Origin: Azospirillum sp. TSH100
Lineage (GTDB): Bacteria; Pseudomonadota; Alphaproteobacteria; Azospirillales; Azospirillaceae
Assembly (NCBI RefSeq): GCF_004923295.1
Contig: NZ_CP039637.1
Location: 496,001-560,000 of the forward strand
Direction: 5' to 3'
DNA: 64,000 bases
Shown here: in pieces, positions 16,208 through 55,889 of the stretch
How positions within the stretch are numbered: the first letter of the stretch is position 1
Layout of the letters: every line of letters starts with the position of its first letter
Translations under genes and position numbers: made by a program
Notes under the pieces: generated by a model
The model's input: only the letters and a program-made list of their open reading frames with translations
Told to the model about the DNA's origin: nothing
Databases searched by the model: none

Positions 16208-17563
16208 TCACGACAGCCCATACTTCCTGATCTTGTCGTGCAGCGTGGTCTTGGCCACCTGCAACTCCTCCGCGGCGCGGGCGAGGCTGTGGCCGGTGCG
16301 GCGCAGGGTGTCGGCGATGAGCGCGCGTTCGAAGGCTTCCACCGCCTCGGCCAGCGGGCGGGCGGGCGTGGGGTGGGCAGTGGCGAAGGGGGGGAAGCCC
16401 TGTTCGATTCCGAGAACGCAGCGGTCCGCGACATTGTGCAGCTCGCGCACGTTGCCGGGCCAATCGTAGGCCATCAGGCGGCGCATGCGTTCGGCATCCG
16501 GTGGCGGGAGCGGGCGGCCATGGCGGGCGGCGGCCTGGAGGATGAACTGCTCGAACAGCAGCGGGATGTCCTCGCGCCGGTCGCGCAGGGGCGGAAGCGG
16601 CAGATTGGCGACATTCAGGCGGTAATAGAGGTCGGCGCGGAACTGCCCGCGGTCGGCCAGCTCGCGCAGATCAACCTTGGTCGCGGCGATCACCCGGCAA
16701 TTGACGGGGATCGGTGTGTTGGAGCCCAGCCGTTCCAGCGTGCGCTCCTGAAGCACGCGCAGGAACTTGATCTGCACCGGCATCGGCATGCTCTCGATCT
16801 CGTCGAGGAACAGGGTGCCGCCGTTGGCGTGCTCCACCTTGCCGATGCGGCGCTTGCCGGCCCCGGTGAAGGAACCGGCCTCATGGCCGAAGATTTCGCT
16901 GTCGATCAGGCTTTCCGGCAGACCGCCGCAGTTGATGGCGACGAAATTGCCGTCGCGGCGCGGGCTGGCCTCGTGCAGGCAGCGGGCTGCGAGTTCCTTG
17001 CCGGAGCCGGTCTCGCCATGGATCAGCACGTCGGCGGCCGACGTGGCAAGCTCGCCGATCAGCCGGCGCACCCGTGCCATCTGCGGTGATCCGCCGACCA
17101 GCCTTGCCTCGATGCTGTCGCGGTTCTGCAAACGGGCGCGCAGGTCGCGCACCTCCAGAGTCAGGCGGCGCTTCTCCAGGGCGCGGCGCACCACCTCGAC
17201 CAGATAGTCGGGGGAGAAGGGCTTCTCGATGAAGTCGTGGGCGCCCAGCTTCATCGCCTGCACCGCCATCGCCACGTCGCCATGGCCGGTCATCAGCACC
17301 ACCGGCAGATCCGGGTCAGCGGCCAGCAGCTCTGCCAGCAGAGCCATTCCATCCATGCCCGGCAGGCGGATGTCGGTGACAACCACGCCCGGAAAACCCT
17401 CCACCACCAGCCGGCGGGCCTTCTCCGCGCTGTCCACCGCCTCGGTCGGGATGTCCTCCAGTTCCAGCGCCTGCTGGCAGCCGAGGCTGACGTTCGGGTC
17501 GTCCTCGACGATAAGGACCTTCAGGGGCAGGGCCTTCAGGGTGGGGGCGGCAGAGTCGGACAT
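16208..17563 (-). CDS. dctD: C4-dicarboxylate response regulator DctD (sigma54 activator)
   Basis: A 451-residue NtrC-class activator: receiver domain (residues 15-130, phosphorylated Asp64 in VVTDIRLPG), AAA+ domain (about 150-385; Walker A GETGSGKE, Walker B GTLFLDEIE), and a C-terminal Fis-type HTH (about 410-450, AAEELQVAKTTLHDKI). The sigma54-contact loop reads GSFTGA where nearly all activators have GAFTGA. The start codon lies inside the end of dctB (28-bp overlap) with GGAGA upstream, so translation is coupled. Its likely target is the sigma54 promoter ahead of aspA-dctA in the same cluster. Confidence 0.88.
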   Translation of the reverse strand: MSDSAAPTLKALPLKVLIVEDDPNVSLGCQQALELEDIPTEAVDSAEKARRLVVEGFPGVVVTDIRLPGMDGMALLAELLAADPDLPVVLMTGHGDVAMAVQAMKLGAHDFIEKPFSPDYLVEVVRRALEKRRLTLEVRDLRARLQNRDSIEARLVGGSPQMARVRRLIGELATSAADVLIHGETGSGKELAARCLHEASPRRDGNFVAINCGGLPESLIDSEIFGHEAGSFTGAGKRRIGKVEHANGGTLFLDEIESMPMPVQIKFLRVLQERTLERLGSNTPIPVNCRVIAATKVDLRELADRGQFRADLYYRLNVANLPLPPLRDRREDIPLLFEQFILQAAARHGRPLPPPDAERMRRLMAYDWPGNVRELHNVADRCVLGIEQGFPPFATAHPTPARPLAEAVEAFERALIADTLRRTGHSLARAAEELQVAKTTLHDKIRKYGLS

Positions 17564-22328: not shown

Positions 22329-22344
22329 AGCAACCGCCATGCCA
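22329..22344 (-). promoter_or_regulatory. Sigma54 (-24/-12) promoter of aspA-dctA
   Basis: Read on the minus strand, TGGCATGGCGGTTGCT matches TGGCACG-N4-TTGCW with one mismatch and exact spacing. The start point would be near 22318, giving a leader of about 49 bases before aspA. Almost identical to the promoter of the mim operon (47173-47188). Confidence 0.75.
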
Positions 22345-42646: not shown

Positions 42647-43642
42647 TCAAATGTCCAACACCAATCTTGCGCTTCGGGCACGCGAGACGCACAGCATCAT
42701 CGTCTTGCCGGCGGCGCGCTCGGCGTCTGACAGGACGCTGTCGCGGTGGTCGGGCTCGCCCTCCAGCACCGTCGTCTCGCAGGTGCCGCAGATGCCCTGC
42801 TCGCAGGAGGAATCGGCCTCGACGCCCGCAGCATGGAGCGAGTCCAGAATGCCAGTCCCCGCCGGCACCGTGACGGTCACGCCGGACCGGGCGCAGACCA
42901 CCTCGAAGCTTTCGTCCGGCACAACCTGACGGGCCGGCTCGACACGCGGCGTGAACCACTCGAAACGGACATCCTGAGCCGGCTGGGCGGCAGCCGCGAC
43001 CGCCTCCATCAGCCGCTGTGGGCCACAGCAATAGATCGGGATATTGGTGGGCGTGGACGCCAGCAGCGCCTCCACCGCCAGCCGGTCGCCTTCGTCGGCG
43101 GCATGCAGTTCGACCCGACCATGGGGCAGGGCGCGGAGATCGTCGAGAAAGGGCGCCGCCGATGCGCTGCGCACGCAGTAATGCAGGACCCAGTCCGCCC
43201 CGCGTTCCGCCGCCTTGCGGATCATCGGCAACAGCGGGGTGATGCCGATGCCGCCGGCGATGAACAGATAACGCGGCGCGTCGTCGAAACGGAAATTGTT
43301 GCGGGGAGCGGAGATGGCGAGGTCGGTGCCCGGTTCCAGCTCCCCGTGGATGAAGCCCGATCCCCGGCCGCCCGGCACGTTCAGCACGGCGATGCGGTAG
43401 GCATGGCGGTCCGCCGGGTCGCCGCACAGCGAATAGGACCGCACCGCGCCGTCCGGCAGATGCAGGTCGATGTGGGCGCCCGGCTCGGCTGGCGGCAACA
43501 GTCGTTCGTCGGGATCGCGCAGTTCGACCAGCCGGACTTGCGGCGTGATCGGCTCCAGACGGTGCACGCGCAGCGTCCATGGCGTCTTCGGCGAATGTCC
43601 GGGCGGCGAATGTCCGGGCGTTCCCGGCTGAATACTGCTCAT
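42647..43642 (-). CDS. Phthalate dioxygenase reductase-family ferredoxin reductase (VanB-like)
   Basis: A 331-residue electron-transfer protein: FMN-binding domain (RSYSLCGDP, about residue 67), NAD domain (YLFIAGGIGITPLLPMI, about 127-143; CCGPQRLM near 210), and a C-terminal plant-type [2Fe-2S] domain with cysteines in CEQGICGTC and a last Cys near 317. It passes electrons from NADH to a Rieske oxygenase, which is not in this window. An N-terminal PGHSPPGHSP repeat stems from a 15-bp duplication. The ATG at 43642 is chosen by domain start. Confidence 0.88.
   Translation of the reverse strand: MSSIQPGTPGHSPPGHSPKTPWTLRVHRLEPITPQVRLVELRDPDERLLPPAEPGAHIDLHLPDGAVRSYSLCGDPADRHAYRIAVLNVPGGRGSGFIHGELEPGTDLAISAPRNNFRFDDAPRYLFIAGGIGITPLLPMIRKAAERGADWVLHYCVRSASAAPFLDDLRALPHGRVELHAADEGDRLAVEALLASTPTNIPIYCCGPQRLMEAVAAAAQPAQDVRFEWFTPRVEPARQVVPDESFEVVCARSGVTVTVPAGTGILDSLHAAGVEADSSCEQGICGTCETTVLEGEPDHRDSVLSDAERAAGKTMMLCVSRARSARLVLDI
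43590..43619 (-). repeat. Perfect 15-bp tandem duplication at the start of the reductase gene
   Basis: GGCGAATGTCCGGGC occurs at 43590-43604 and again at 43605-43619, in frame, giving a repeated PGHSP in the N-terminal tail before the FMN domain. Confidence 0.9.
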
Positions 43643-43772
43643 CGGTCTGCCTGCAAGGTTTGTCGGCGGAGTATGGTATGCCAGATCCAATGCGGGCAGC
43701 GTAAAACCTCAAGTTAACTTCAGGTCAAGCGGAAATATCGGCGCCAACCCGGAGCCGTCCCGAGCGGCCGCA

Positions 43773-43830: not shown

Positions 43831-45402
43831 TCAGATTTCGCGCTTGGACATCTGGTCGGCGATATGGTCGGCCTGCCGGATCGCCAGCGCGACGATGGTC
43901 AGGGTCGGGTTTTCCGACGCTCCGCTGGTGAACTGGCTGCCGTCCGACACGAACAGGTTCTTCACGTCATGCGCCTGCCCCCATTTGTTGACGACGCCGT
44001 CGCGGGCGTTGGCGCTCATCCGGTTGGTGCCGAGATTGTGGGTGGAGGGGTAGGGCGGGGTGTGGATGGTCCTGACCGCTCCCACCGCGTCATAGACCGC
44101 CGAGCCGCGGCCATAGGCATGGGTGCGCATGGCGATGTCGTTGGGATGGTCATCGAAATTGACGTTGGGGATCGGCAGGCCGAACTTGTCCTTCTCCGTC
44201 GCGTGCAGGGTGACGCGGTTGGTCTCGCGCGGCATGTCCTCCCCCACCAGCCACATGCCGGCGATATGGTCGTAGGCGTCCAGCGCCGAGCTGAAGTCGC
44301 GGCCCCAGGCTCCCGGATCGAGGAAGGCCGCCATGAAGGGCACGCCGAGCGACAGCGTTTCCATCTCGTAGCCGCCGACGAAGCCGCGCCGCGGGTCGAA
44401 GCGGGATTCGTCGCGGATGATGCCGGCCATGGTGGTGCCGCGATACATGTGCACCGGCCGGTCGAACAGACCATAGACCGAGCCGGTCATGTGCCGCATG
44501 TAGTTGCGCCCGACCTGACCCGACGAGTTCGCCAGCCCGTCCGGGAACATCGTCGATGCCGAGTTCAGCAGCAGGCGCGGGCTTTCGATCGAGTTGCCGG
44601 CGACCGCGACGATGCGGGCCTTCTGCCGGTGCATGGCGCCGGTGCTGTCGGCATAGAGCACGCCGTTGACCCTGCCCTTCGCGTCATGCTCGATCTTCAG
44701 CACCTGGGCGTTCGGCCGGACCTCCAGGTTGCCGGTGGCCTCGCCCTTGGGGATTTCGGTGTAGAGCGTCGACCATTTCGCCCCCGACTTGCAGCCCTGG
44801 AAACAGAAACCGATCTGCTGGCAGGAACCGCGGCCGTCGCGCGGCTTGCTGTTGATCGACATGTTGCCGGTGTGGAACTCGTTGTAGCCCAGCTTCTTGG
44901 CGCCGGCCGCCAGAACCTTGTAATTGTTGTTGCCGGGCAGGCGCGGGATGCCGTTGGTGCCGGTCGTCCCCATTTTGAACTCGGCCTTGTCGTAATAGGG
45001 CTCCATCTCCGCCAGCGTCACCGGCCAGTCGAGCAGGTTGGCGCCTTCCACCGCGCCATAGGTCGTGCGCGCCTTGAACTCGTGTTCCTGGAAGCGCAGC
45101 GAGGCGCCGGCCCAATGGACGGTGGAGCCGCCGACAGCCTTGACGATCCAGGCCGGCAGGTTGGGGAAGTCCTTCGCCACCCGCCAGCTGCCGGACGTCG
45201 TGCGCTTGTCCAGCCAGGAGATCTGGGAAAAGCTCTTCCACTCGTCGTTCACGAAATCCTGGATTTCGTGGCGCCCGCCGGCCTCCAGGCAGACGACCTT
45301 GATGCCCTTCTGGGCCAGTTCGTTCGCCAGGGTGCCGCCGCCGGCCCCCGATCCGATCACCACCACGACGCTGTCGTCATCCATCGCGAATTTCGCAACC
45401 AT
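43831..45402 (-). CDS. GMC-family FAD dehydrogenase, large subunit
   Basis: A 523-residue flavoprotein. The FAD motif VVIGSGAGGGTLANELAQ lies at residues 12-30; the C-terminal half carries the GMC signature with HNLGTNRM and the active-site-proximal FVSDGSQFTSGASENPTLTI. A CQQIGFCFQGCK segment resembles the cysteine cluster of multi-subunit GMC dehydrogenases (gluconate 2-dehydrogenase, FAD-glucose dehydrogenase). It lacks its own signal and is likely carried out by the Tat-exported subunit encoded just upstream. It would oxidise an alcohol group and pass electrons to the cytochrome c of the same operon. GGAGGA precedes the ATG. Confidence 0.88.
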   Translation of the reverse strand: MVAKFAMDDDSVVVVIGSGAGGGTLANELAQKGIKVVCLEAGGRHEIQDFVNDEWKSFSQISWLDKRTTSGSWRVAKDFPNLPAWIVKAVGGSTVHWAGASLRFQEHEFKARTTYGAVEGANLLDWPVTLAEMEPYYDKAEFKMGTTGTNGIPRLPGNNNYKVLAAGAKKLGYNEFHTGNMSINSKPRDGRGSCQQIGFCFQGCKSGAKWSTLYTEIPKGEATGNLEVRPNAQVLKIEHDAKGRVNGVLYADSTGAMHRQKARIVAVAGNSIESPRLLLNSASTMFPDGLANSSGQVGRNYMRHMTGSVYGLFDRPVHMYRGTTMAGIIRDESRFDPRRGFVGGYEMETLSLGVPFMAAFLDPGAWGRDFSSALDAYDHIAGMWLVGEDMPRETNRVTLHATEKDKFGLPIPNVNFDDHPNDIAMRTHAYGRGSAVYDAVGAVRTIHTPPYPSTHNLGTNRMSANARDGVVNKWGQAHDVKNLFVSDGSQFTSGASENPTLTIVALAIRQADHIADQMSKREI

Positions 45403-45456: not shown

Positions 45457-46011
45457 TCAGGCGTCCTTGATCCAGTCCAGATCGTCGAAGCCGCGATGGA
45501 TGTAGCCGCCATATTCGGCTGACGCCCCTTCGTAGCCGAGCTTCGCCCACACCTCCGGCTGGTTGTAGAGGGCGACCACCATGTCGCCGCGGACCTTGCG
45601 GAAGAAGGGCGTGGTCTCGATGGATTTCAGCACGGCGACACGGTCCGCCTCGGCCTTGATGGCGGCGTAGGGTGCGTTGCGCAGCTTGCGCGCGGCGGTG
45701 TCGAGGGCCACCGCCCCCTCGTTCAGCTGGCCTGCCAGGGTGGCGTCCTTCGCCGCCGCCTGATCCATCGAGGCCAACGCCGTCTCGTAATAGGCATCGC
45801 CCAGCCGGTCGTGCGGATAGAGGTCGCGTACCATCACCAGCAGGGTCTTGGCAGCATCGGGCTTGATGGCGGTCAACCCCTCGGCCCAGGCCGGGGTCGC
45901 GCCAATCGTCACCATACCGCCGGAAACCGCACCGGCCGCCGCCACTGACGCGGCGGACGTCTTCAGAAAGTTCCGCCTGTTGAGCCGTGTCCGTTTGTCG
46001 AGAACGCGCAT
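45457..46011 (-). CDS. Tat-exported small subunit of GMC dehydrogenase (gluconate 2-dehydrogenase subunit 3 type)
   Basis: A 184-residue protein with a twin-arginine signal (NRRNFLKTSAA, residues 11-21) and a hydrophobic stretch to a likely cleavage after AWA near 43. The mature part is helical and has the family's RDLYPHDRLGDAYYE region. In characterised enzymes this subunit assembles with the GMC flavoprotein and takes it across the membrane in folded form. AAGGAGA precedes the ATG. It lies 54 bp ahead of the GMC gene and 62 bp behind gloA in the same leftward operon. Confidence 0.85.
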   Translation of the reverse strand: MRVLDKRTRLNRRNFLKTSAASVAAAGAVSGGMVTIGATPAWAEGLTAIKPDAAKTLLVMVRDLYPHDRLGDAYYETALASMDQAAAKDATLAGQLNEGAVALDTAARKLRNAPYAAIKAEADRVAVLKSIETTPFFRKVRGDMVVALYNQPEVWAKLGYEGASAEYGGYIHRGFDDLDWIKDA

Positions 46012-46073: not shown

Positions 46074-46469
46074 TCAGCGGTAGCGGCCGTGGCGTTGCAG
46101 GACCTCGGTCTTGTAGCCGTCCGGATCGGTGACGAAGAAGAAGCGGGCCAGCAGGGTGCCGCCGGGGGCGAACTCCTTCACCGGGGTCACCGGGAGGCCC
46201 AGGGCCGACATCCGGGCGTGCTCGCCGTCCAGATCGTCCACCGCCACCGCCATGTGGCCGTAGCCGTCGCCGTGGGTGTAGGGCGCGGTCCGGTCGTGGT
46301 TGACGGTCAGCTCCAACTCCATGTCGTTCTCGGCGTTGCGCAGGTAGATCAGCGTGAAGCCGTCGAAGCCCAGCCGCTCGGCCGGTTCCAGCCCGAAGGC
46401 CCCGGCGTAGAAGTCCAGCGACCGCTGTTCGTCGAGGACGCGCACCATCATGTGGATGATCTTTGCCAT
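46074..46469 (-). CDS. gloA: Glyoxalase I (lactoylglutathione lyase), VOC fold
   Basis: A 131-residue VOC protein that aligns well with E. coli GloA: it opens IIHMMVRVLDEQRSLDFY, and all four metal ligands are present as His6, Glu53, His72 (GYGHMAVAV) and Glu122 (DPDGYKTEV), against His5, Glu56, His74 and Glu122 in E. coli. The enzyme turns the methylglyoxal-glutathione hemithioacetal into S-lactoylglutathione. Its place in an operon divergent from an acetone/propane-type monooxygenase suggests that methylglyoxal arises in the pathway. Start fixed by AGGAGG upstream. Confidence 0.88.
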   Translation of the reverse strand: MAKIIHMMVRVLDEQRSLDFYAGAFGLEPAERLGFDGFTLIYLRNAENDMELELTVNHDRTAPYTHGDGYGHMAVAVDDLDGEHARMSALGLPVTPVKEFAPGGTLLARFFFVTDPDGYKTEVLQRHGRYR

Positions 46470-46501: not shown

Positions 46502-46906
46502 TTACCGTTTGGCGCTGGTTTCCAGGAACTGGACGATGCTCTTGCGGATGGCGCCGTCGTCCTGGTGGTAGTTCATGTAGCTGCCGGGAACGAACTGGTT
46601 GGAGTTGGTCAGCCAGTTCTCCAGATGGCCGGCGTCCCAGGCGAAGCCGGCACCGCGCAGCGCATCGGAATAGTCGAAGCCGTTGACGCTGCCGGCCTTG
46701 CGGCCGATGACGCCGTAGAGCGGCGGCCCGGCGCGCGGCCCGTCGTCCTTCTTCACCGAATGGCAGGTTCCACATTGCTGGCGGAACAGCGTCTCGCCAT
46801 CCGCGGCCGCCGATTTCCGCATGAAGGGCGAAAAAGGAATGGACAGAAGGAGCAGCAACATCACCCAGCGGTGCGGCGACATCCTCGCGTGCATCGCATG
46901 CCTCAT
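46502..46906 (-). CDS. Periplasmic class I cytochrome c
   Basis: A 134-residue protein: basic start, hydrophobic signal (WVMLLLLLSIPFSPF, residues 14-28), heme-binding CGTCH at 45-49, and the axial Met in GSYMNYH at 111, with the AGPPLYGVIGRKAGS segment of cytochrome c550/c2 proteins. It is probably the electron acceptor of the GMC dehydrogenase encoded in the same operon. An ATG eight codons later is an alternative start. It is the first gene behind the minus-strand sigma54 promoter (about 60-base leader). Confidence 0.88.
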   Translation of the reverse strand: MRHAMHARMSPHRWVMLLLLLSIPFSPFMRKSAAADGETLFRQQCGTCHSVKKDDGPRAGPPLYGVIGRKAGSVNGFDYSDALRGAGFAWDAGHLENWLTNSNQFVPGSYMNYHQDDGAIRKSIVQFLETSAKR

Positions 46907-46980: not shown

Positions 46981-46996
46981 AGCAAGGGGCGTGCCA
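46981..46996 (-). promoter_or_regulatory. Sigma54 promoter of the cytochrome c-gloA-GMC operon
   Basis: On the minus strand TGGCACGCCCCTTGCT is a full match to TGGCACG-N4-TTGCW with exact spacing. The start point is expected near 46969. The shared upstream palindromes at 47070-47119 lie about 109 and 142 bp upstream of it. Confidence 0.85.
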
Positions 46997-47069
46997 CGCT
47001 GTGCAAAGCCGCGCCGGATAAGGGGAAAGGCGGGTTTTGTGCGGTGTCGTGGGAAGGCGCTGTTCCAAC

Positions 47070-47119
47070 TGTTTCATTTTGGGACACTGCGGCGCGACAG
47101 ATCGTCCCATTATGAGACG
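47070..47119. promoter_or_regulatory. Paired enhancer-type palindromes between divergent sigma54 promoters
   Basis: TGTTTCATTTTGGGACA (47070-47086) and CGTCCCATTATGAGACG (47103-47119) are imperfect 17-bp dyads sharing GTYYCA-N3-TGRRAC; their centres are 33 bp apart, three helical turns. They lie about 89-122 bp upstream of the mimA start point and 109-142 bp upstream of the divergent one. The AcoR-like activator encoded at 53784 is the natural candidate to bind them. Confidence 0.7.
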
Positions 47120-47172
47120 GTATGTTATACGGATCTTCTTTGAAATCATCAAACCGGCGGGCTCCGGCGTTC

Positions 47173-47188
47173 TGGCATGCCGGTTGCT
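47173..47188 (+). promoter_or_regulatory. Sigma54 promoter of the mim operon
   Basis: TGGCATGCCGGTTGCT matches TGGCACG-N4-TTGCW with one mismatch and exact spacing. Transcription would begin near 47200, leaving a leader of about 190 bases before mimA, in which I see no recognised structure. Confidence 0.8.
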
Positions 47189-47392
47189 TTATGGGATGGG
47201 CGTTGCAGCCGCCCCCGGTTTGGCGGTCGCAAACGGCCTGAAGCCGCAGATCTTTATCGCCGCGCCGTTGCGCCGGTGCTGGTCTGGCCGATCCCGCCCA
47301 CAAAACTGCCGATGTCCCGTCATCCGGCATATGCGGCCGACGCGATCCTTCAGGTCTGGATCACCATCATCAAAATCATGGGGAGAGACGAC

Positions 47393-49057
47393 ATGCCGGA
47401 TGGATTGACGCTGAACAAGATCACCAGCCAGAAGGGCATCGGCATCGGCGAGGCGGCCCGCCGCGTCGCCGATCTCGGCTGGACGCCGTCCTACGTCAAG
47501 GAGGCGATGGCTTTCCCGACCGACTACAAGATCTCCAAGGCGCCGCGCGACCCGATGAAACAGGTCCTGCGCTCCTACTTCCCGATGCAGGAGGAGAAGG
47601 ACAACCGCGTCTATGGCGCGCTGGACGCGGCCCTGCGCGGCGACATGTTCCGCAATGTCGAGCCGCGCTGGATCGAATGGATGAAGCTGTTCCTGGCGAT
47701 CATCCCGTTCCCCGAGATCTCGGCGGCGCGGTCGATGGCGACGCTGGGCCAGCTGGCGCCGGGCGACGACCTGCGCACCGGCTTCACCATGCAGATGATC
47801 GACGAGTTCCGGCACTCGACGATCCAGATGAACCTGAAGAAATGGTACATGGAGAACTACATCGACCCGGCTGGCTTCGACATCACCGAGAAGGCGTTCG
47901 GCAAATGCTACGCCACCACCATCGGCCGGCAGTTCGGTGAAGCCTTCCTGACCGGCGACGCCATCACCGCGTCGAACATCTATCTGCAGGTCGTGGCCGA
48001 GACCGCCTTCACCAACACCCTGTTCGTCGCCATGCCGTCGGAGGCGGCGCGCAATGGCGACTATGCCCTGCCCACTGTCTTCCTGTCGGTGCAGAGCGAC
48101 GAATCCCGCCACATCGGCAATGGCCATTCCATGCTGATGTCGGTGCTGAAGGAGCCGGACAACCATCTGCTGCTGGAACGCGACATCCGCTATTCCTTCT
48201 GGCAGAACCACATGATCGTCGACGCCGCCATCGGCACGATCATCGAATACGGCACCAAGCACCGCGACAAGAACAAGGAATCCTACGCCGAGCTGTGGCA
48301 CCGCTGGATCTTCGAGGACTATTACCGCACCTACCTGCTGCCGCTGGAGAAGTACGGCATCAAGATCCACCATGACGACGTCCACGAAGCCTTCGACAGC
48401 ATCGTCAAGAAGAACTACGTCCACAAGATCGCCCAGTTCTTTTCCGCCGGCTGGTGGGCCAATTTCTGGCGCATCGAGGCGATGACCGAACGCGATTTCG
48501 AATGGTTCGAGAGCAAGTATCCGGGCTGGTACGACGAGTTCGGTGTCTGGTGGGAGAATTACGCCAAGCTCAGCAAGCCGGGCAGCGTGCCGATCACCTT
48601 CGCAGACACCGGCTACGTCTATCCGCACCGCTGCTGGTCGAGCCTGGTGCCCTGCGTCATCCGCGAGGATTTCACGATCGACGAGGTGGATGGCGAGCTG
48701 TTCACCTACGCCTCCGAGGTCGACCGCTGGACCCACAAGGAGGCGTTCGCCGCCGAATATCAGGGGCGTCCGACCCCGGCGATGGGCCGCTTCTCCGGTC
48801 GGCGCCAGTGGGAGGAGGTCTATGACGGCTGGGATCTCGCCGACGCCATCCAGGACATGGGCTTCGTCCGCCCCGACGGGAAGACGCTGATCGCCCAGCC
48901 GCATCTGTCCTTCGAGGAGAAGGACATGTGGACTCTCGACCATGTACGCGGCCACACCATCCGCAGCCCGCTGCTGGCGCTGCGCGAAATGACGCCGCAA
49001 CAGCGTCAGGCGCATGTCGAAGAGTACCGCAAGGGCTTCAAGATCCGCCGGGTCTGA
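47393..49057 (+). CDS. mimA: Soluble di-iron monooxygenase hydroxylase alpha subunit (MimA/PrmA-type)
   Basis: A 554-residue hydroxylase subunit closely resembling mycobacterial MimA of the propane/acetone/phenol monooxygenase. All six di-iron ligands are visible: Glu108 (PFPEISAAR), Glu138 and His141 (MIDEFRHSTIQ), Glu203 (VVAETAFTN), Glu237 and His240 (QSDESRHIGNG). The dinuclear centre inserts oxygen into small alkanes, acetone or phenol. GGGAGA six bases before the ATG sets the start; the open frame continues 72 codons upstream across the promoter and is not coding. First gene of mimABCD plus a chaperonin gene; the N-terminal sequence also has the RSYFPMQEEKDNRVYG block typical of the group. 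Confidence 0.95.
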   Translation: MPDGLTLNKITSQKGIGIGEAARRVADLGWTPSYVKEAMAFPTDYKISKAPRDPMKQVLRSYFPMQEEKDNRVYGALDAALRGDMFRNVEPRWIEWMKLFLAIIPFPEISAARSMATLGQLAPGDDLRTGFTMQMIDEFRHSTIQMNLKKWYMENYIDPAGFDITEKAFGKCYATTIGRQFGEAFLTGDAITASNIYLQVVAETAFTNTLFVAMPSEAARNGDYALPTVFLSVQSDESRHIGNGHSMLMSVLKEPDNHLLLERDIRYSFWQNHMIVDAAIGTIIEYGTKHRDKNKESYAELWHRWIFEDYYRTYLLPLEKYGIKIHHDDVHEAFDSIVKKNYVHKIAQFFSAGWWANFWRIEAMTERDFEWFESKYPGWYDEFGVWWENYAKLSKPGSVPITFADTGYVYPHRCWSSLVPCVIREDFTIDEVDGELFTYASEVDRWTHKEAFAAEYQGRPTPAMGRFSGRRQWEEVYDGWDLADAIQDMGFVRPDGKTLIAQPHLSFEEKDMWTLDHVRGHTIRSPLLALREMTPQQRQAHVEEYRKGFKIRRV

Positions 49058-49147: not shown

Positions 49148-50206
49148 ATGACCGCACAAGCGCTACAGAACAGTCCGGCCATCCACACGGTGCGGCTTGA
49201 GCCGGTCGGCATCGAAATGGAGGTCGCGGAAGGGGAAACCATCCTCGACGCGGCCTTCCGTCAGGGCGTCTCGCTGATGCATGGCTGCAAGGAGGGGCAA
49301 TGCTCCGCCTGCAAATGCCTGCTGATCGACGGCGACGTGGAGATGCTGAAATACTCCACCTTCGCGCTCTCCGATCCGGAGCGCGACAGCAACCACATCC
49401 TTCTGTGCCGCTCGCTGGCCTACAGCGACGTGGCGGTGGAACTGCTGAATTACGACGAGGATCTGCTGTCCCGCTCCATTCCGGTGAAGGACTTCACCGC
49501 GCGGCTGGCGGCGGTGCAGCCGCTGACCCACGACATCGTCGCCATCGCGCTGGACCTCGACCAGCCGATGAAGTTCTGGGCCGGGCAATATGTCGACATC
49601 ACGTTGCCCGGCATCGGCCTGACCCGCTCCTTCTCGATGGGCAACCCGCCGGCGGACGGCAACCGGCTTGAGTTCATCATCAAGAAATACCCGGACGGCG
49701 CCTTCTCGCGCCAATTGGACGGCGGCCTCTCGGTCGGCGACCGGGTGAACGTGCGCGGTCCCTACGGTACCTGTTTCCGCCGCGAGGGGCGGGAGGGGCC
49801 GATGATCCTGGTCGGCGGCGGGTCGGGCATGGCGCCGCTGCTGTCTATCTTGCGCGATCAGGCCGCCAGCGGCGAGACGCGGCCGGTGCGCTTCTTCTAC
49901 GGTGCCCGCAGCCGCCGCGACCTGTTCCACCTCGATCAGTTCGAGGAGTTCGCACGCAGCCTGCCGGACTTCGCCTTCATTCCCGCCCTGTCGCATGCCG
50001 AGGAGGGCGACGGCTGGACCGGCGAGACCGGCTTCATCCACGAGGTGTTGCGCCGGCACCTCTCCGACATGGATGAGGTGGAGGAGGCCGATGTCTTTTC
50101 CTGCGGGCCGCCGCCGATGATCGACGCGGTGCTGCCTGTCCTGCAGATGGCCGGCATCGAGTCCGCGCGCGTCTATTTCGACAAATTCACCCCTGCGACC
50201 CGCTGA
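49148..50206 (+). CDS. mimB: Monooxygenase NADH reductase (MimB)
   Basis: A 352-residue reductase. An N-terminal plant-type [2Fe-2S] domain has cysteines at 47, 52, 55 and 87 (GCKEGQCSACKC and LLCRS). Then an FAD domain (LTRSFSMGNPP, near residue 160) and an NAD domain (ILVGGGSGMAPLLSIL near 220; SCGPPPMIDAVLP near the end). It transfers electrons from NADH to the di-iron centre of MimA. Gene order matches mycobacterial mimABCD. No unusual feature. Confidence 0.92.
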   Translation: MTAQALQNSPAIHTVRLEPVGIEMEVAEGETILDAAFRQGVSLMHGCKEGQCSACKCLLIDGDVEMLKYSTFALSDPERDSNHILLCRSLAYSDVAVELLNYDEDLLSRSIPVKDFTARLAAVQPLTHDIVAIALDLDQPMKFWAGQYVDITLPGIGLTRSFSMGNPPADGNRLEFIIKKYPDGAFSRQLDGGLSVGDRVNVRGPYGTCFRREGREGPMILVGGGSGMAPLLSILRDQAASGETRPVRFFYGARSRRDLFHLDQFEEFARSLPDFAFIPALSHAEEGDGWTGETGFIHEVLRRHLSDMDEVEEADVFSCGPPPMIDAVLPVLQMAGIESARVYFDKFTPATR

Positions 50207-50251: not shown

Positions 50252-51373
50252 ATGACCATGCAGGAAGCCACATCCGCAGCCGCCGGGGCCAAGGTCTTTC
50301 CGGGCTCCGACAGCCGCCGTTACAATTACTTCGAGCCGAAGGGCCGCAAGGCCACCCACTACGAGGACGTGACGGTCGACGTCCAGCCCGATCCGGAGCG
50401 CTATCTTCTCCAGAACTGGATCATCTCCTTCGGTGATGGCACGCCCACATATTCCAAGGACTGGACCGCGCTGAAATGCACGGACTGGCACGGCTTCCGC
50501 GCCCCCGACCAGGAATGGGAACGCACCCATTATCAGCGCCAGTCCACCATCGTCGGCATGATCCAGAATGTGGTGGAGAACGCGCGCCGCGCCGGGGCTC
50601 CCCAGCGCTTCGACAAGGCCTGGGTCGCCGTGCTCCAGAACCATGTCGGCGCCTTCAAGCATGCCGAATATGGCCTGGGCACCGCGCTGATGCGGGCGCA
50701 GCGCTATGGCTATACCCAGATGGTCAACAACGCCATCCTGACCAACGCCTCGTACAAGCTGCGCTTCGCCCAGGATCTGACGCTCTATCTGGCCGAGGTC
50801 GGCAGCGACATCGGCGGCTTCGACCTGGATGCCGGCAAGGCGCACTGGATGGACGACCCGATCTGGCAGCCCTGCCGCGAGGCGGTGGAGCATATCCGTG
50901 CCGCCACCGACTTCCTGGAGCAGTATTTCGCCGTCAACCTCGTCTTCGAGCCGTTGGTCGGCGAGTTGTTCCGCAGCGGCTTCGTCATGCAGGTGGCGGC
51001 TGCCCAGAACGATTTCTCCACTCCGTCCGTGATCTCGGCGGCCGAGGCCGATTATGAGCGGAACCTCGCCAACGCGGTGGAGCTTTTCGCCCTGCTGCTG
51101 CGCGACCCGGCGCATGGGCAGGACAACCGGACCATGCTGCAAAGCTGGTTCACCCACCATGGCGGGCTGGCGGTTAAGGCGGCCTTGCAGTTGCAGCCGC
51201 TGTGGTCGCTCCCGCGTGTCAAGGCGGCGGGCTTCGCGGATGCCTTCGAGCGGGCTCGCGGCCGCGTCGCCGCCATCGGGCGCGAGATCGGCATCGACGC
51301 CGACCTGCCGGCCCTGCCGCCGGTGGAGGTTGGGCAGCCGGCTCCTGCGGTCACCGACGCCGCGGCCGAGTGA
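50252..51373 (+). CDS. mimC: Monooxygenase hydroxylase beta subunit (MimC)
   Basis: A 373-residue protein of the ferritin-like beta-subunit family of soluble di-iron monooxygenases. It has the GRKATHYEDVTVDVQPDP opening, the NHVGAFKHAEYGLG and AEVGSDIGGFDLDAGKA helices of the family but lacks the metal-binding E-x-x-H pairs, as expected for the structural subunit. It forms the (alpha-beta)2 core with MimA. Preceded by GGAGG; 45 bp after mimB. Confidence 0.92.
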   Translation: MTMQEATSAAAGAKVFPGSDSRRYNYFEPKGRKATHYEDVTVDVQPDPERYLLQNWIISFGDGTPTYSKDWTALKCTDWHGFRAPDQEWERTHYQRQSTIVGMIQNVVENARRAGAPQRFDKAWVAVLQNHVGAFKHAEYGLGTALMRAQRYGYTQMVNNAILTNASYKLRFAQDLTLYLAEVGSDIGGFDLDAGKAHWMDDPIWQPCREAVEHIRAATDFLEQYFAVNLVFEPLVGELFRSGFVMQVAAAQNDFSTPSVISAAEADYERNLANAVELFALLLRDPAHGQDNRTMLQSWFTHHGGLAVKAALQLQPLWSLPRVKAAGFADAFERARGRVAAIGREIGIDADLPALPPVEVGQPAPAVTDAAAE

Positions 51374-51409: not shown

Positions 51410-51766
51410 ATGAGCGTCACCACCGTGCAGCAGCTTTTCAAGCCGCTGAGGGACATCACGCAGGAAGCCACCATCTCGCACCAGTGCGGCGTGACGATGA
51501 ACGACAGCGTCGAGGCGCGCTGCATCGCCGAAGTGATGGAGAGCAAGCCCGGCATCACCGTGACCTATCTGCCGGCAATGATCCGCATCGACGGCGAGGG
51601 CAGGATCGAGTTCAGGATGAGCGAGATCGGCGAGGCGCTGGGTCGCGAGATGACCCCGCACATCTTCGAGATCTCCACCTCCACCCACTATGGCCGCATG
51701 GTCATGATCGATGAGGACACGGTCGTCCTCTTCGGCAACATGGACGATGCGCTGGCCTACGAGTGA
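51410..51766 (+). CDS. mimD: Monooxygenase coupling/effector protein (MimD)
   Basis: A 118-residue MmoB/DmpM-family effector. The family's VTMNDSVEARCIAEVMESKPGITVTYLPAMIRIDGEG region is present (key block EARCIAEVM at about residues 37-45). It binds the hydroxylase without cofactor and tunes oxygen activation. It follows mimC by 36 bp, closing the core monooxygenase set. Confidence 0.92.
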   Translation: MSVTTVQQLFKPLRDITQEATISHQCGVTMNDSVEARCIAEVMESKPGITVTYLPAMIRIDGEGRIEFRMSEIGEALGREMTPHIFEISTSTHYGRMVMIDEDTVVLFGNMDDALAYE

Positions 51767-51845: not shown

Positions 51846-51881
51846 AAATCCGCAAAATCAAGAATGGGAGGGACAGACGCC

Positions 51882-53519
51882 ATGCCGAAGATGATGCTGC
51901 ACCGTGCCGAGGCGCGGGCCGCGCTTGCCCGTGGGGTGGGCAAGCTGGCGCTGGCGGTGCGTGGCACGCTGGGGCCTAAGGGGACCAACGCGATCATCGA
52001 CCGTCCCATCGGCACGCCGATGATCTCCCGCGACGGCGTCAGCATCGCCGCCGAAATCGAATTGCCCTGCCGTTTCGAGAATATGGGCGCCCAGGTGGTG
52101 CGCGAGGTCTCGAAACAGACCAACGACGTGGCTGGCGACGGCACCACCACCGCCACCGTGCTGGCCGACGCGCTGATCCAGGACGGCGTCGCCGTGCTGG
52201 CGGACGGGCATGGCTCGGTCGAACTCGTCGAGGGGATGGAGCGGGCCTGCGGCTTCGTCGTCGATCAGCTTCGCCATATGGCCCGTCCGCTGGATGGCCA
52301 TCCCCGGCTGGAGCAGGTGGCGACCGTCGCAGCGACCGATCCGGTGCTCGGCCGGCTGGTGGCGGATGCCCTGCGCCGGGTCGGGATGGAAGGGGTGATC
52401 GACATCGAATACGGCCAGCCGGGCGCGCCGACGGCGCTGCATGTGCTGGAGGGCATGGTGCTGGACCGCGGCTTCCTGTCCCACCACATGGCGACCGAGC
52501 CGACCGGCCAGACCGCGGTGCTGGAGTGGCCCCGCATCCTGATGACCGATCATAAAATCACCGATCCGGAACCGGTCCTGCGCCTGATCGGGCGGATTGA
52601 CGACGAGCGCCCGCTGCTGGTCATCGCCGACAGCGTTGCGCCGGAGGTCGTGGCGGCACTGATGGCCTTGCGCCGCGACGGGCGCGCCACGGTGGTGGCG
52701 ATCAATCCCCCGGAATTCGGCCACTGGCGTCAGGCGACGATGGAGGACATCGCGATCCTGACCGGCGGGCGCGTGATTGCACGCGATCTGGGCGGTCGCC
52801 TCGATAGTGTGACGGCTGCGGATCTGGGGGGCGCCGGCCGCATCGAGGTGTCCGCCGGCCGCACCACAATCCTGCGCGGCCATGGCGATCCTGATGCGCT
52901 CGCTGCCCGCCGCGCCCTGGTGCAGCGCCAGTGGGAGGAGGCGCCCCCCAACATCGAGCGGGACAAGCTGTCCCAGCGGCTGGCGAAGCTGACGCACGGC
53001 ACCGCCCTGATCGAGGTCGGCGGCGCCACGCCGGTGGAACAGAAACGCACCGCCCAGCTTCTGGAGGATTCGCTGGCCGCCGCCCGTGCCGCGCTGGCCG
53101 ACGGGGTGGTTCCCGGCGGCGGCACCGCGCTGGCCCGCATCGCCCCGCTGCTCGACCGGCTGGCCGCAGATGTGGGGGAGGGCGAGAAGGCCGGGGTAAG
53201 GCTGGTGCAGCGGGCAATGCTCCAGCCCCTGGTCTGCATCGCCGAGAATGGCGGGCTGGACGGGGCCGGTGTCGCCGCCCGGATCACCGAACTTCCCGAC
53301 GGATCCGGCTTCGATGCCCGCACCGGCCGGTTCGGCGATCTGTTCGCCGCGGGGATCATCGATCCGGTCAAGGTCACCACGCTGGCATTGCTGAACGCGG
53401 TGTCGGTCGCCAAGCTGGTGCTGACCACCCATACCCTGATCGCCGACATCCCCGACGATGTCGATCCCACCGCCGGCCCGGCCCGCGGCGGTGGAATGGA
53501 GCGCTATGGGCGGACCTGA
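51882..53519 (+). CDS. GroEL-like chaperonin dedicated to the monooxygenase (MimG-type)
   Basis: A 545-residue group I chaperonin of unusual sequence. ATPase residues are kept: GPKGTNAIIDRP with the equatorial loop, the catalytic Asp of GDGTTTATVL, and the later Asp before AALADGVVPGGGTAL. The apical domain diverges from housekeeping GroEL, and the tail is a short GGGMERYGRT. There is no groES beside it. In mycobacteria a GroEL-like protein from the mim locus is required for soluble MimA; this is the likely role here. The ATG at 51882 with GGGAGG upstream is preferred to one at 51864 that overlaps that ribosome site. Confidence 0.9.
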   Translation: MPKMMLHRAEARAALARGVGKLALAVRGTLGPKGTNAIIDRPIGTPMISRDGVSIAAEIELPCRFENMGAQVVREVSKQTNDVAGDGTTTATVLADALIQDGVAVLADGHGSVELVEGMERACGFVVDQLRHMARPLDGHPRLEQVATVAATDPVLGRLVADALRRVGMEGVIDIEYGQPGAPTALHVLEGMVLDRGFLSHHMATEPTGQTAVLEWPRILMTDHKITDPEPVLRLIGRIDDERPLLVIADSVAPEVVAALMALRRDGRATVVAINPPEFGHWRQATMEDIAILTGGRVIARDLGGRLDSVTAADLGGAGRIEVSAGRTTILRGHGDPDALAARRALVQRQWEEAPPNIERDKLSQRLAKLTHGTALIEVGGATPVEQKRTAQLLEDSLAAARAALADGVVPGGGTALARIAPLLDRLAADVGEGEKAGVRLVQRAMLQPLVCIAENGGLDGAGVAARITELPDGSGFDARTGRFGDLFAAGIIDPVKVTTLALLNAVSVAKLVLTTHTLIADIPDDVDPTAGPARGGGMERYGRT

Positions 53520-53783: not shown

Positions 53784-55889
53784 ATGTTGTCCAACGAACG
53801 GGCTGGCATCGGCCGTCTGGCCGTTGCACCGTCCGCACCGGCGTTCCACGCGCTGGTGGATGGTGAAACGGCCACGATGAAAGCGTGGGAGGATTTCGTT
53901 TCCGGCTCGCGGCGGGACAATCTGCCGGTCCGCGACGTCGTCATCCGATCCTGGGCGCGATGTCAGAGCTTTCTGGTCGACGCGCGGGCGGACGCCGCCC
54001 CGGTGGTCGGCGGCGACCACATCGAAGCCCTGCGCCGCGACAACCGCGACCTGCTTCAGGCGGCGGCCTCGACCCTGGCGGAGGCGGCGGACCTGCTGGC
54101 CGGAACGCGGACGGTCATGCTCATCACCGATGCCAACGGCATAGTGCTGGAAGCCGCCGGCGACCGCGCCACGCTGAACGCGGCACGCGACATCAGTCTG
54201 GCCTGCGGCGGCCAGTGGGGCGAAAGCTGTGCCGGGACCAACGGCATCGGCACGGCGCTCGCCTCAAAGCAGCCGGTGCTGGTCCAGGCGGCGGAGCATT
54301 ACTGTGCCGGTATCAAGGGGTGGAGCTGCGCCGGGGCGCCGATCCACGACCCGGTCGACGGATCGGTCGTCGGTCTGCTCGACATCTCCGGCCTGAAGCA
54401 GAGCTTCAGCGGACAGGCGCTGGCCCTGGCCGTGGTCGCCGCCCGGCAGGTCGAATGGAATCTCGCCCGCCAGACGGAGGCCGAACATGTGCGGCTTCTG
54501 GAGGCCTGTCTGGAGGACAGCCAGAGATATGCCGGCGAGGGGCTGATAGCCCTCGATGCCCGAGGGCGTCTTCTCTATGCGAGCCGCAAGGCGGCGCATC
54601 TGCTGAAGGCCACCCTGGGATCCGACCTGCCGCAGTTGAGCCGTGGGACGAGGCTGCCTATTCCGGGAATGGGGGGGGATGCCGGGGGCAGGGCGGAGGG
54701 CCGACTGCCGGTTCCGGCCGACTGGGTCCGGCCGCTGATGCTGGATGGAGAACGTCGGGGGACACTGCTGGTCATTCCCACCGCCGCATCGGCCCGCCCA
54801 TCGGCCGGGCGCCGTGCCGTGCCGGACGAATCCGATCACAGCCGCTGCCGCTTCGCCGACATCGTGGGGGACAGCGACAGCCTGCGCGCCGTGATCGGAC
54901 AGGGGGAACGTCTGGCGCCGCTGCCGGTGCCCATCCTGATCGAGGGGGAGACCGGGGTCGGCAAGGAACTGTTCGCGCGTGCCGTCCATGGTCACGGCGC
55001 GGCGGCCGGCGGTCCCTTCGTGCCGTTCAATTGCGGGGCCGTCTCGCGCGAGATGCTGGGCAGCGAGCTGTTCGGCTATGTGCGTGGCGCCTTCACCGGC
55101 GCGGCGGCGGAGGGGCGGATCGGCCGATTCGAGCTGGCGGACGGCGGCACGCTGTGTCTGGACGAGATCGGCGAATTGCCGCTCGACCTCCAACCCTATC
55201 TGCTGCGGGTGCTGGAGGAGGGCGTGCTGTACCGCATCGGCGACAATGTCCCGCGCCGGGTGTCGGTGCGGCTGCTCGCCATGACCAACCGGAATTTGCG
55301 CCAGGAGGTCGCCGCCGGCCGCTTCCGCCGCGACCTCTATCACCGCCTCGCCGTTACGGCGCTGCGGGTGCCGCCCTTGCGGGAACGGCATGGTGATGTT
55401 CCGCGCCTGATCTCCCATTTCAACGGCCTGCTGTCTGAGCGGCATGGCCGGGCGCCCGTCCGCTTCACCGCGGAGGCGCTGGAACTGCTGCAACGTTATG
55501 GCTGGCCGGGCAATGTCCGGGAACTGCGCAATGCGGTCGAGCGCGCGGTCCTGCTGTCCACCAGCGGGCTTGTCGGTATCGACGACCTGCCGGACGAGGT
55601 GCGCGACGCCTGCGGCTGCGTGGGGGCGGAGGTGGGAACAGGGGTGAGTGCAGAGGGCTGGCCGCTGCTGGCATCGCCGCCCCTGCCCGTCATGTCGCTG
55701 ACGGTTACCGAACAGCGCGCCATCGAGGACGTGATCGCGGCGACCGGCGGGAACCTGTCGGATGCGGCGGCGGCCCTGGGCATTTCGCGCAGCACGCTGT
55801 ACCGCAAGATGAGCCAGCATGGCATCGAGCGCACGACAGCCAGACGCATGGCCACCAAGAGCATGGCGGCCAGAAGCACGGCGGCCTGA
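53784..55889 (+). CDS. AcoR/MimR-like sigma54-dependent activator
   Basis: A 701-residue regulator: N-terminal GAF-type sensor (about residues 85-230, [14 protein letters not shown] and [22 protein letters not shown] are typical of AcoR), AAA+ domain (about 355-590; [14 protein letters not shown] in full, [13 protein letters not shown]), and a C-terminal Fis-type HTH (about 650-685, [16 protein letters not shown]). AcoR-type proteins sense small oxygenated molecules such as acetoin, or phenol/acetone in mim systems. It probably activates both divergent sigma54 promoters near 47 kb. GGGAGG precedes the ATG. Confidence 0.9.

Follow-up and report, generated by a model that had tools for sequence, protein, structure and literature searches.

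The window (the whole stretch of 64,000 nucleotides that was analyzed) covers positions 496001 to 560000 of contig C4 of G000, a 7.17-Mb genome of the genus Azospirillum whose nearest named relatives are Azospirillum lipoferum, Azospirillum oryzae, and Azospirillum melinis. Within it, two groups of genes diverge. Those on the plus strand encode a soluble di-iron monooxygenase, a chaperonin, and a putative activator, and those on the minus strand encode a cytochrome c, a glyoxalase, and a dehydrogenase, as follows.

43831-45402, minus strand: GMC-family flavin dehydrogenase, probable acetol dehydrogenase (PF00732/PF05199)
45457-46011, minus strand: Tat-exported small subunit of the GMC dehydrogenase (TAT signal; always beside the GMC gene)
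46074-46457, minus strand: glyoxalase I-like protein (PF00903; GloA-like, 116 bits)
46502-46906, minus strand: secreted cytochrome c, first gene of the divergent operon (PF00034; place conserved in Azospirillum)
47393-49057, plus strand: large hydroxylase subunit of a soluble di-iron monooxygenase, Mim/Prm-like (mimA; PF02332)
49148-50206, plus strand: reductase (mimB-like; from the open reading frame and the conserved neighborhood)
50252-51373, plus strand: small hydroxylase subunit (mimC-like; PF02332)
51410-51766, plus strand: coupling protein (mimD-like; PF02406)
51864-53519, plus strand: GroEL-like chaperonin of the cluster (PF00118)
53784-55889, plus strand: AcoR-like sigma54 activator with GAF, AAA+ (with GAFTGA), and Fis-type helix-turn-helix (HTH) domains (domain matches; predicted to bind the dyads described below)

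The plus-strand genes have the ABCD order followed by a GroEL-like gene that marks the Mim/Prm type, and the large subunit had 509 relatives. The coupling protein scored 111 bits against the NCBIfam MimD model, below its 150-bit equivalog cut-off, and the enzyme is therefore called Mim/Prm-like only. It may be a candidate oxidizer of propane, acetone, or phenol. A ferredoxin reductase gene at 42647-43690 was considered as a member of the minus-strand operon and dropped, being seen in only 2 of the 10 Azospirillum loci first compared. A search of virus-derived contigs gave only two partial matches.

Divergent sigma54 elements flank a pair of dyads

A sequence-only reading of this DNA had proposed that the two operons are transcribed from divergent sigma54 promoters sharing one pair of enhancer palindromes. 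We examined the region between the operons with the strict pattern TGGCAYGN4TTGCW and with the dyad pattern GTYYCA-N3-TGRRAC. The elements found there were as follows.

46981-46996, minus strand: sigma54 -24/-12 element TGGCACGCCCCTTGCT of the cytochrome c/glyoxalase/GMC operon (perfect consensus; kept at 17/17 Azospirillum-genus loci)
47061-47067, plus strand: TGTTCCA, a possible further half-site roughly one turn upstream of dyad 1 (largely conserved among the aligned loci)
47070-47086, no strand: dyad 1, TGTTTCATTTTGGGACA (exact pattern match at 47071-47085)
47093-47099, minus strand: possible extra half-site CGCGACA, between the dyads and one turn from dyad 2 (mostly conserved)
47103-47119, no strand: dyad 2, CGTCCCATTATGAGACG (exact pattern match at 47104-47118)
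47173-47188, plus strand: sigma54 -24/-12 element TGGCATGCCGGTTGCT of the monooxygenase operon (perfect consensus; kept at 17/17 Azospirillum-genus loci)

Both sigma54 elements matched the strict pattern in full, with the exact -24/-12 spacing, as had been read. The window held 3 strict matches, compared with 0.03 expected from shuffles. Pattern searches of the whole genome gave 12, compared with 4 for a reversed-pattern control. The genome has one rpoN gene (PF04552 match, 234 bits). With start points set 12 bp downstream of the GC, transcription is predicted to begin at about 47199 on the plus strand and about 46970 on the minus strand. The predicted leaders would be about 194 nt for the monooxygenase gene (start at 47393) and about 64 nt for the cytochrome c gene (start at 46906). 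The long predicted monooxygenase mRNA leader (47199-47392) is partly conserved in the genus. The third strict element of the window lies at 22329-22344 on the minus strand, with no dyad of the mim-region kind nearby; the same window also holds a sigma54 activator gene at about 16601-17101 (minus strand).

The dyads had been described as two 17-bp dyads of the form GTYYCA-N3-TGRRAC. The pattern is exact at both, but they are imperfect palindromes, and the length of 17 bp includes one flanking base on each side. Their centers, 47078 and 47111, are 33 bp apart as claimed. The center of dyad 1 is 82 bp from the T of the minus -24 element and 95 bp from that of the plus element; for dyad 2, the corresponding distances are 115 and 62 bp. 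Measured from the predicted starts, the centers lie at -88/-121 (plus) and -108/-141 (minus), in agreement with the 89 to 142 bp given earlier. These two dyads are the only matches to the pattern in the window, where 0.04 would be expected. Elsewhere in the genome, the dyad occurs at one place only, where a gene for an S24/LexA-like repressor begins on a different contig. Upstream of the 10 other strict sigma54 sites of the genome, no comparable dyad was found; the best score was 17.6, compared with 21.6 and 22.5 on the same scale for the dyads between the divergent promoters. The two extra half-sites (47061-47067 and 47093-47099) possibly have a function as well. Together with both dyads, they make six half-sites in roughly 10-bp steps. 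A search of open papers for a MimR binding site yielded nothing usable.

The arrangement is conserved in Azospirillum

The monooxygenase is present in 17 of the 45 genomes of the genus. Fourteen of these loci were found through DNA similarity, and those of G023, G043, and G044 were located through the gene. Searching related genomes for the same dyad pair between the same genes had been suggested as a check. When we did so, both sigma54 elements with the palindromes between them were kept at all 17 loci. Both dyads scored at 16 of them; in G021, the second dyad was under the cut-off. In an alignment of 15 of the 17 loci, the promoter elements carried 1.71 and 1.65 bits of information per position, dyads 1 and 2 carried 1.69 and 1.48, and the gaps flanking dyads and promoters carried 0.83 to 0.89. 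The promoters and the palindromes are thus the best-conserved blocks of the region between the leaders of both genes.

Two loci carry insertions that separate the minus promoter from the dyads, and both count against a shared enhancer. The insertion in G013 is 199 bp long, and that in G033 is about 1.5 kb long and contains a transposase gene. In the G033 cluster (L117, G033:C7:499500-507500), a second, IS66-like transposase interrupts the monooxygenase gene, and the cluster is decaying. Use of the G033 insertion as a natural test of long-range activation was discarded because the monooxygenase gene is also interrupted.

Dyad spacings shift by about one helical turn at both promoters

The plus-strand sigma54 element of the monooxygenase is also present in many alpha- and betaproteobacteria. 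Upstream of it lies a dyad pair resembling TGTCSCA-N3-TGSGACA, with the centers mostly 30 to 34 bp apart. The comparison indicates that this pair is a general feature of the Mim/Prm-like monooxygenase promoter. Its commonest position in these two classes is near -83/-116, counted from the base at which the -24 element begins. Relative to the monooxygenase promoter, the Azospirillum dyads lie at -62/-95; relative to the divergent one, they lie at -82/-115 in most genomes. It is therefore the divergent promoter that has the usual dyad geometry.

The spacings of the proximal dyad were 50, 62, 72, and 83 bp at the plus promoter and 60, 72, 82, and 281 bp at the minus promoter, so that they shift by about one helical turn at both. 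All share one phase of a 10.5-bp period (R of 0.92), with a probability of about 1e-4 for eight independent classes, a figure to be taken as indicative only, since the classes came from clear pairs and from related lineages. Without such selection, a scan of 45 nonredundant sigma54-dyad promoters gave 11 bp as the strongest period (R of 0.67), and the two dyads of a pair were about 33 or 43 bp apart.

The cytochrome c/glyoxalase/small-subunit/GMC set accompanies the monooxygenase in several layouts. Its genes diverge from the monooxygenase in Azospirillum and at three sphingomonad-type loci. In Methylocella they follow it on the same strand, in Beijerinckia they precede it, and in Azoarcus they come after the activator gene. 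The separate glyoxalase-GMC unit of Azoarcus is preceded by a sigma54 element of its own, whose dyads lie at -105/-148. A sigma54-dyad promoter was also sought for the separate unit of Skermanella, where no sigma54 site was found, and for the downstream unit of Methylocella, which had no such promoter of its own; sigma54 co-control is therefore not universal. At the three sphingomonad-type loci, which have a divergent sigma54 pair, a search for a clear dyad pair gave weak half-sites only. Since Skermanella, Methylocella, and the sphingomonad-type loci do not fit, sharing of the enhancer is well supported for Azospirillum only.

The activator HTH changes together with the dyad motif

The gene at 53784 had been named as the likely source of the activator. 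Its product combines GAF, AAA+, and HTH domains with a GAFTGA motif, in the manner of a sigma54 activator, and relatives of it are encoded in most of the clusters, across genera. The HTH and the dyad motif change together: the 53784-type HTH goes with TGTCSCA-type dyads, and an HTH with GVSRNTIYRA goes with TGTTCCG-N3-CGGAACA at another promoter. A sigma54 element plus a dyad was found at the monooxygenase at 43 of the 44 loci holding the 53784-type HTH and at 4 of the 13 where only the GVSRNTIYRA type was seen, counts that are bounded by the locus ends and uncorrected for kinship. The Bradyrhizobium clusters encode the different activator (GVSRNTIYRA) and have the TGTTCCG-N3-CGGAACA dyad before a neighboring alcohol dehydrogenase gene; no sigma54 site was found at their monooxygenase. 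The center of this dyad is 96 bp upstream of the -24 element, at about 6.0 kb on the plus strand, in L073, L077, L079, L083, L084, and L088 to L090. The domains and the covariation of the recognition helix with the motif point to the 53784 product as the probable activator.

The minus-strand operon looks like an acetol pathway

The GMC protein of the window is 74% identical to that of Methylocella silvestris TVC, which is encoded 10.4 kb downstream of the monooxygenase on the same contig. In strain BL2 of this species, Msil_1651-1648 encode the propane monooxygenase. Growth on acetone and on 2-propanol there requires the GMC gene Msil_1641, and a mutant lacking this gene accumulates acetol, which supports acetol oxidation by Msil_1641 (PMC7364539). 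The TVC gene and Msil_1641 are, from their position, most likely the same gene. The Msil_1651-1648 to Msil_1641 region has the same gene set as the Azospirillum locus, but its GMC unit is downstream on the same strand and not divergent. The window protein shares with Msil_1641 the GMC fold and the place in a monooxygenase cluster, and it is probably an acetol dehydrogenase as well. This sharpens the earlier idea of the substrate, as the minus-strand operon looks like an acetol dehydrogenase plus a glyoxalase. The two units would then carry out the conversion of acetone to acetol and that of acetol through methylglyoxal to lactoylglutathione. Reactive methylglyoxal would be expected downstream of the monooxygenase, which may be why the acetol and glyoxalase genes travel with it.

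DISCUSSION

The comparative evidence supports each step of the sequence-only reading, without proving it. We consider it likely that one AcoR-type activator, acting on the dyads, serves both sigma54 promoters and thereby couples the two halves of an acetone-to-acetol pathway. The phase of the spacings, the association of motif and HTH, and the Azoarcus dyads agree with a single activator for both promoters. From the elements, their conservation and spacing, and the gene content, we infer the following course of binding, sigma54-dependent transcription, and enzyme action. The AcoR-like product of 53784-55889 would bind 47060-47119 as its upstream activating region. On sensing an inducer, which is probably acetone, 2-propanol, or a similar compound, this activator would oligomerize on the dyad pair. 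Short DNA loops would bring it to RNA polymerase-sigma54 at both promoters; as the dyads are three turns apart and in constant phase to both promoters, bound dimers would meet either polymerase from one and the same side of the helix. ATP hydrolysis would open the plus promoter, for the monooxygenase-groEL operon, and the minus promoter, for the cytochrome c-glyoxalase-GMC operon. The likely purpose would be to hydroxylate acetone to acetol, oxidize acetol to methylglyoxal, and detoxify methylglyoxal jointly. More tentatively, the region might be a two-sided enhancer under selection as such, in which insertions and deletions of whole turns keep the phase and one oligomer serves two polymerases, together or in turn, fixing the ratio of the acetone and acetol halves of the pathway.

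The dyads could instead serve the monooxygenase promoter only, with the minus promoter using another activator or other sites and lying merely back to back with it. The pair does occur with the monooxygenase promoter in genomes that lack a divergent glyoxalase-GMC unit, and the Skermanella unit without a sigma54 site and the sphingomonad-type divergent sites without clear dyads point in the same direction. In Azospirillum, however, the minus promoter is conserved as strongly as the plus promoter and is the one with the usual geometry. It holds the helical phase in four spacing classes, no other conserved block was found near it, and a glyoxalase-GMC unit elsewhere, that of Azoarcus, has dyads of its own. 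We therefore regard this arrangement as unlikely. The identity of the activator could also differ: the genome has 21 strong matches to sigma54-activator domains, so that 20 besides the 53784 product count against it, and one of them, a full-length AcoR homologue on contig C1, is 38% identical and aligns over residues 50 to 682. That such a protein binds the dyads in its place seems very unlikely, since it is relatives of the 53784 product that sit in the cluster across genera and whose recognition helix changes with the motif.

Repressors often bind palindromes between divergent promoters, and the dyads might be operators that keep the two promoters repressed. Sigma54 promoters require an activator, though, and the dyads lie 62 to 115 bp upstream of both -24 elements without overlapping them, which makes this highly improbable. 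The decay of the G033 cluster would suit the notion that the sites are chance matches or remnants, but the motif frequencies and the conservation in 17 genomes refute it statistically and leave it a negligible chance.

The arrangement had been called an economical two-way design. That is a fair description, but precedents exist: in other bacteria, single activators are already known to control divergent sigma54 promoters. FhlA is a GAF-AAA-HTH activator, as the 53784 product is. According to a passage of PMC3844500 that cites Lutz et al. 1990, it controls the divergent hyc and hyp sigma54 promoters, so that hycA/hypA of Escherichia coli and Salmonella resembles the Azospirillum region in this respect. 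The differences are that hycA/hypA serves formate hydrogenlyase genes and has another enhancer sequence, and that the Azospirillum activator gene is about 6.5 kb away, after groEL. The divergent sigma54 promoters of zraP/zraSR are under ZraR (PMC4987338), a response regulator whose gene belongs to one of these operons, and serve zinc and envelope stress, not catabolism. The actinobacterial mim/prm clusters of Rhodococcus and Mycobacterium share with Azospirillum the ABCD order, the GroEL gene, and a Fis-family, AcoR-like regulator, but their authors proposed -35/-10 promoters and described no divergent GMC-glyoxalase operon (PMC4428276). In Thauera butanivorans, the sigma54 activator BmoR controls the short-chain alkane monooxygenase PBMO through an upstream inverted repeat; unlike in Azospirillum, a single promoter is described, with 193 bp between the upstream site and the -24/-12 boxes (PMC8899819), and the enzyme belongs to another monooxygenase group than the Mim/Prm-like one. 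In the literature searched, we found no description of the Azospirillum divergent region.

For proteobacterial Mim/Prm-like clusters, a compact and testable regulatory rule emerges, with TGTCSCA-N3-TGSGACA as the dyad consensus, together with the probable activator and the geometry. If the enhancer is shared, the 17 natural variants, with minus spacings of 60, 72, 82, and 281 bp, would form a test series for sharing and competition and are convenient for studying how one bacterial enhancer serves two promoters. The activator-promoter pair could also be a candidate biosensor for acetone or propane. At the Burkholderiaceae loci L038 to L057, the monooxygenase is preceded by an alcohol dehydrogenase gene with a sigma54 promoter of its own, mostly at about 3.6 kb on the plus strand. 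This promoter has two dyads of the mim-region kind 43 bp (four turns) apart, which suggests that the regulon is wider.
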